64,000 nt of DNA from Granulicella mallensis MP5ACTX8. GTDB lineage: Bacteria > Acidobacteriota > Terriglobia > Terriglobales > Acidobacteriaceae. The DNA is taken from NCBI RefSeq assembly GCF_000178955.2, contig NC_016631.1, forward strand, positions 1 to 64,000. Reading direction: 5' to 3'. Positions 47,663-48,821 of the stretch are shown in pieces. Below the pieces are notes generated by a model. The model was not told the origin of the DNA. It saw nothing but the letters and a program-made list of their open reading frames with translations, and searched no databases. Every line of letters begins with the position of its first letter. The stretch's first letter is position 1. The position numbers were made by a program, and so were the translations under genes.

Positions 47663-47891
47663 CGTGGCTATGCTCCGCGCATAGTGTAACTGCCCGCTAT
47701 AGCCCGCCACGAGCCAATACAGAGGGGATGAAAGGGCTTTACCGGCACGGGCCTTCTCATGGAAAGGGTGCATGTGCAAGCCAGCAACCGGCCTTGTACC
47801 AAACTCCTCAACTGTGTCTAATTAGACACACCACAGCGCCCTGTTCCCGGATGTAGCCTGTGGTTCTGTTACAAGAATCAGGGAACCGCAC

Positions 47892-48821
47892 CTGCCTAAC
47901 GACGCCCAATTCGAACAGACCATCCATAGTCCACTGGATTTCAGCGGTATTGGCCTGCATTCCGGCGCGGAGGTCACGATGCGGCTCGTTCCCGCGCCTG
48001 CCGGTTCGGGCATCGTCTTCCGCCGCACCGACCTGGATAACTTCGAGATTCCCGCCACCGGCCGCAACGTCGCGAAGGTTAGCTATGCGACCTCACTGAT
48101 GCGCCAGGGCGTGTTGATCTCGACGACCGAGCACCTGCTCTCCGCGTTGATAGGTCTTGGTGTCGATAACGTCATCGTTGAGGTCGACAACCTCGAAGTC
48201 CCGATTCTGGATGGCTCGGCCCGGCCTTACGTGGCCGCGATGCTCGGTGCGGGCCTCAAGCGTCAGCGCCGCAAGCGTGAATATCTCCGCATCCTGAAAG
48301 AGATCGAGGTTCGGGAGGGAAGCAAGTTCATCGGCGTCTATCCCGGTGAGGGCTACTCGATCCACTACACCATCGACTTCCCCGAGCCCATCGGGCACGA
48401 GACCTTTGTGGGGGATCTCGAAGCCGGGGACTATTGCAACCTGATCGCGCCCGCGCGCACCTTTGGCTTTCGCGAGGATGAGCCCATGCTGCGCGATATG
48501 GGTCTGATCCGCGGTGCCTCCGACGAGTGCGCCATTATCATCGGTGGCGGCGAGGTACAGAACGGCCCGCTGCGCTTTGGCGATGAGTTCGTACGGCATA
48601 AGGTCCTCGATCTGATCGGCGATCTCGCTCTTGCCGGCCGCCGCATCTGGGGACGCGTTGTCGCCGAACGTGCCGGCCATGCCATGCACACCGCGCTGGT
48701 GCAGCGCCTGCTGCGTGACCGTTCGGCCTGGGAGCTGGCGCATCGCTATGAAGAGCCGGTGGCTGCGGCCAAACCGGCTGTTATGCCTGTGGGCGCTACG
48801 CTGCAGCCTTCGCACGCCTGA
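47892..48821 (+). CDS. lpxC: UDP-3-O-acyl-N-acetylglucosamine deacetylase (lipid A synthesis)
   Basis: Zinc deacetylase for the first committed step of lipid A synthesis. About 309 residues: IHSPLDFSGIGLHSGAEV (N-terminal homology), STTEHLLSAL (metal His), DNVIVEVDNLEVPILDGSA, ARTFGF, FVRHKVLDLIGDL (His and Asp) and GHAMHTALVQ. The homology extends upstream of the first ATG (47979) through about 25 further codons, where no ATG, GTG or TTG lies in frame. A CTG at 47892, seven bases after AGGGA, is the most plausible start. A nearby frameshift cannot be excluded. Confidence 0.9.
   Translation: MPNDAQFEQTIHSPLDFSGIGLHSGAEVTMRLVPAPAGSGIVFRRTDLDNFEIPATGRNVAKVSYATSLMRQGVLISTTEHLLSALIGLGVDNVIVEVDNLEVPILDGSARPYVAAMLGAGLKRQRRKREYLRILKEIEVREGSKFIGVYPGEGYSIHYTIDFPEPIGHETFVGDLEAGDYCNLIAPARTFGFREDEPMLRDMGLIRGASDECAIIIGGGEVQNGPLRFGDEFVRHKVLDLIGDLALAGRRIWGRVVAERAGHAMHTALVQRLLRDRSAWELAHRYEEPVAAAKPAVMPVGATLQPSHA

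Follow-up and report, generated by a model that had tools for sequence, protein, structure and literature searches.

In Granulicella mallensis MP5ACTX8, LpxC, whose reaction commits cells to making lipid A, is very probably translated from a CTG codon at position 47892 of the window (the whole 64,000-nucleotide stretch of DNA analysed here), with formyl-methionine at its first position and with initiation held weak by lineage-wide selection that limits LpxC. This reading is drawn from comparisons of sequence. We compared lpxC loci from the genus (25), from elsewhere in the family (about 100 more), from elsewhere in the phylum (about 90) and from other phyla, numbering codons backward from the first G of the LpxC GxGxHSG motif. 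Shine-Dalgarno calls were made by simple string match, and the family and genus codes used below (g17, g41, g51, g63 and g79) are the analysis tool's own grouping. Two loci on contigs labelled Rhodanobacteraceae (L057 and L073) carry an lpxC of the Acidobacteriaceae type, with 82% and 75% identity, respectively, to that of the window, and are probably mis-binned or mislabelled. Our literature search found no publication on lpxC start codons.

The lpxC reading frame and its start codon

The product of this single-copy gene scored 277 bits against TIGR00325 in a profile search (cut-off 187), and the CTG-started protein matched PF03331 at 4e-94 over positions 2–267 of the 268 in the Pfam model, a full-length match above the curated cut-off that places it in the LpxC family. 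The frame is free of stop codons between the TAG at 47823–47825 and the TGA at 48819–48821 and, as the initial annotation had claimed, contains no ATG, GTG or TTG from that TAG to the ATG at 47979. The AGGGA element and its spacing from the CTG were also as described there, and we rate this Shine-Dalgarno sequence as just fair. Two additional in-frame codons that had gone unlisted, CTG 47841 and ATC 47877, were rejected as starts because neither is conserved in relatives, and GTG 47860 was rejected because it is out of frame in an unconserved region. Folding of the lpxC leader in a way that would mask the start was unremarkable (z-score −1.1).

Positions, strands and properties of the features at the lpxC locus
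Feature	Position	Strand	Description
18-bp perfect palindrome TGTGTCTAATTAGACACA, candidate lpxC operator	47813..47830	.	Sole perfect copy of the sequence in the genome
Extended −10-like element TGTAGCCT	47852..47859	+	Predicted; hexamer position shared in the family
Shine-Dalgarno AGGGA, spacing 7	47880..47884	+	Conserved at −10 to −8 among 20 Granulicella loci
lpxC	47892..48821	+	309 codons plus stop, CTG start; TIGR00325 and PF03331 matches; single copy
CTG start codon	47892..47894	+	CTG in 22/25 genus loci; one base from ATG in 81/97 family (crown) loci, ATG in 0
First in-frame ATG, an internal Met codon	47979..47981	+	Within the conserved LpxC fold

The proposal that CTG 47892 is the best candidate for the lpxC start gains strong support from relatives, an alignment of which the initial annotation had suggested as a check. 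Of the 25 Granulicella loci, 22 have CTG at codon −18, and in five of them (L004, L007, L010, L018 and L019) this CTG is either the sole NTG between the in-frame stop and the protein core or the sole one with a usable Shine-Dalgarno sequence. Every base of the codon is invariant among 20 CTG loci of the genus, compared to a CTG share of 20–75% at 23 further columns of invariant leucine and of 43% over all leucines of the protein. Within the same 20 loci, clear conservation 5′ of the CTG is confined to the Shine-Dalgarno positions −10 to −8, and codon-periodic conservation sets in exactly at the CTG. Such invariance and such a flanking pattern are not expected of a leucine codon in mid-protein and thus mark the CTG at −18 as the start; lpxC combines a conserved position, a Shine-Dalgarno sequence and coding conservation from the codon onward, as a conserved non-canonical start should. 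The idea that an ordinary start was lost through a base dropped in sequencing or assembly, which nothing except the oddness of a CTG recommends, has virtually no chance of being right, because the near-identical G. mallensis X5P3, independently sequenced and assembled, carries an identical lpxC leader, which excludes an error in this record, and because the same codon recurs in about 20 other species.

Translation from ATG 47979, with the upstream part untranslated or non-essential, is also highly improbable. This codon is the first in-frame ATG and, as had been anticipated, an ORF caller restricted to ATG, GTG and TTG reports the form that begins there, with a loss of 29 residues. Conserved LpxC sequence does extend 5′ of it, however: the Pfam match begins at residue 9 of the CTG-started protein and alignments to solved LpxC structures at residues 7–10, the ATG-started protein enters the Pfam profile at position 23 of 268 rather than at position 2, and conservation of residues 8–29, which the solved structures include, extends from Granulicella to Proteobacteria. 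The onset of the codon-periodic pattern at the CTG also argues against initiation at the ATG.

Start codons of lpxC and of control genes in the family

In the family crown, 81 of 97 lpxC loci have at codon −18 a triplet that differs from ATG by a single base (TTG 39, CTG 24, GTG 10, ATC 7 and ATT 1), and none of the 97 has ATG there. A Shine-Dalgarno-like match, defined as three or more bases at a spacing of 4–12, precedes 80 of these 81 codons. The ATC and ATT starts belong to genera g63 and g17, and the ATC of g63 follows GGAG or AGGAG at good spacing. In a deeper branch of the family, the start is mostly a TTG at codon −14, the position at which other Acidobacteriota have ATG, although these calls are based on position and a Shine-Dalgarno sequence is often absent. 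Genus g41 (two species) apparently uses an ATG at −16, two codons past the homologous codon. Outside the family, the lpxC start is usually ATG, with TTG or GTG also in some other Acidobacteriota families and in Nitrospira. In genus g51 (L187, L198 and L204), a −10-like sequence, TGTAATCT, lies only about 16 bases 5′ of the TTG at −14, so that in this genus the lpxC mRNA may have hardly any leader before its non-ATG start.

A count that is free of start calls gave the same picture: an in-frame ATG occurs between codons −26 and −11 in 12 of 128 family loci, compared to 58 of 73 loci in other Acidobacteriota and 28 of 33 in other phyla, and most of the 12 family loci with a nearby ATG also have a better-placed TTG or CTG. 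Fisher's test of the family against other Acidobacteriota gave a p value of 2e-24, with kinship among loci ignored. When mapped on a FastTree tree, codon −18 has changed at least 10 times and never to ATG. Elsewhere among prokaryotes, a UUG or GUG start is replaced by AUG no less often than by the other of the two (PMC5622118); in genome triplets, 43 UUG-to-AUG switches were counted compared to 35 UUG-to-GUG switches, and 202 GUG-to-AUG switches compared to 37 GUG-to-UUG switches, with CUG gained almost never (PMC5622118). At 0.54 per change, 10 changes without an ATG have a p value of about 4e-4, a rough figure because neither the direction nor the independence of the codon changes is settled.

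We also determined the starts of other genes in 30 family genomes. ATG begins lpxD in 29 of the 30 and murA in 28, ruling out a general avoidance of ATG by the family. lpxA starts are a mixture of ATG, GTG and TTG, with ATG in roughly 17–20 of the 30 genomes. Since many family members start lpxA, too, with a codon other than ATG, the trend at lpxC may in part not be specific to this gene. infC starts with ATC (26), ATT (2) or ATA (2) in all 30 genomes, that of G. mallensis MP5ACTX8 (L382) included (L360–L389), and nearly always follows a GGAGG-type Shine-Dalgarno sequence. As side observations, lpxA of the window's own genome (G000:C1:425259-426029, L329) has an apparent TTG start; most family genomes contain two lpxD-like genes above the cut-off; and the match to the second such copy in the own genome (G000:C1:4271218-4272120) spans an in-frame TAG.

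These counts also bear on whether drift, or a general liking of the family for non-ATG starts, could explain the lpxC codon without any selection for weak initiation. The mixed starts of lpxA would fit this explanation, and part of the codon changes may simply be inherited. We nevertheless consider it improbable, given the near-uniform ATG of lpxD and murA and the lack of any change to ATG among the 10 or more at codon −18, compared to about half of UUG departures elsewhere (PMC5622118). Thus, the filling of this codon by the near-cognates TTG, CTG, GTG, ATC and ATT while ATG stays out suggests that selection holds initiation on lpxC mRNA low.

Predicted promoter elements upstream of lpxC

The palindrome upstream of lpxC recurs at related loci. 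Of 127 family loci, 105 carry the pattern TGTGKC-N6-GMCACA, with at most one mismatch, upstream of lpxC (0.1% of shuffles), the palindrome-bearing loci falling within L001–L025 and L107–L209, and in 92 of these 105 a −10-like hexamer starts 20–23 bp past the palindrome. The centre of the palindrome is about 44 bp 5′ of the predicted transcription start, a location that would fit either an activator overlapping the −35 region or a repressor. A role in a multi-gene regulon was rejected, as within the genus the palindrome clearly recurs at lpxC only; other exact matches in the genus are few and scattered, near the level of a reversed-pattern control. The palindrome is thus a candidate for a dedicated lpxC operator.

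In Acidobacteriota outside the family, 51 of 72 loci have a sigma-54-like −24/−12 element (TGGCA-N6-TTGC, at most one mismatch; 1% in shuffles) before lpxC, and in 30 of these 51 the palindrome lies about 50–140 bp farther upstream (0.3% in shuffles). Within the family, the sigma-54-like element precedes lpxC in 2 of 127 loci, which is chance level. The loci with sigma-54-like lpxC promoters fall in L210–L296, together with two Nitrospirae loci (L077 and L081), and the palindrome upstream of such an element is placed like an enhancer site. LpxC is predicted to be under sigma-54 control in Myxococcia (PMC12316311). We speculate that the family swapped a tightly gated sigma-54 promoter for one of the sigma-70 type and offset the change with a weak start codon.

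Weak initiation as a probable brake on LpxC synthesis

Under the mechanism that we favor, the AGGGA sequence would position the ribosome and initiator fMet-tRNA would decode CTG 47892, with a mismatch at the first base of the CUG, to yield a 309-residue LpxC. Output of LpxC per mRNA would be low, as expected if CUG initiation complexes are less stable, and their stability is indeed below that of AUG, GUG and UUG complexes (PMC11497404). Weak initiation would then form part of the family's brake on commitment to lipid A. The initial annotation had proposed a deliberate throttle on LpxC; the exclusion of ATG from lpxC across the family, while control genes use ATG, supports this idea, and we infer both the lowered LpxC level and its physiological reason. 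The throttle may be mild in some lineages, because the two most frequent codons at this position, TTG and GTG, weaken initiation only moderately.

The infC gene has an AUU or AUC start and is autoregulated by IF3. lpxC resembles infC in having a rare start one base from AUG that has been kept for long with ATG excluded, and the family of Granulicella itself has ATC, ATT or ATA at infC; it differs in that its product, an enzyme of the envelope, does not feed back on IF3 and in that its codon wanders among TTG, GTG, CTG, ATC and ATT, being IF3-tolerated in most members. In Streptomyces, the GTC start of sigR is repressed by IF3 (PMC5472188). There too, a lineage-conserved non-canonical start was overlooked by annotation and a dosage-sensitive protein is kept low, but for sigR both the dependence on IF3 and the consequence of altering the codon have been measured (PMC5472188), whereas lpxC is known here by its sequence. 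Too much LPS is toxic to E. coli, and LpxC in other phyla is restrained via proteolysis, partner proteins or transcription (PMC12444477); the text of this review mentions neither a start codon nor Acidobacteria. E. coli LpxC, which is subject to FtsH/LapB/YejM proteolysis, is the same enzyme with the same need for restraint of its amount (PMC12444477), but control there is post-translational, whereas here the sequence points to initiation and transcription. LapB (PF18073) was found in 0 of 28 genus genomes, in a search that used a model of just 28 positions and scored no more than 150 candidates per genome. The conserved weak start of lpxC would be a new case of a known kind of control, that of infC and sigR.

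Because IF3 rejects CUG and AUH and tolerates GUG and UUG, the amount or activity of IF3 might instead set LpxC synthesis in Granulicella, through CTG, and in g63 and g17, through ATC and ATT, as it does for infC in E. coli and for sigR in Streptomyces, which with pcnB represent the class of IF3-repressed starts. Codon discrimination probably operates in the family, as infC has ATC, ATT or ATA, nearly always with a strong GGAGG Shine-Dalgarno sequence, in 30 of 30 genomes; the genus with an ATC lpxC start shows the same arrangement as infC; and the GTC start of sigR offers a precedent (PMC5472188). However, most of the family has TTG or GTG at lpxC, which IF3 accepts, and the IF3-rejected codons found in Granulicella and g63/g17 are otherwise limited to g79 among the genera without ATC or ATT, being absent from the TTG/GTG majority. 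We therefore regard coupling to IF3 as possible yet doubtful, and selection for weak initiation as the better account of the lpxC start.

Gene finders restricted to ATG, GTG and TTG truncate LpxC, by 29 residues in this genome, and may mislabel infC in the family. The family-wide and gene-specific exclusion of ATG amounts to a natural experiment on how selection keeps translation weak for an enzyme that is both essential and dosage-sensitive. More tentatively, and with the whole seeming less likely than not, this family may restrain its commitment to lipid A by an initiation brake, with lpxC barred from ATG, IF3-discriminated codons (CUG, AUC and AUU) in some lineages, outer-membrane synthesis that would track the initiation machinery, and a dedicated, conserved operator.
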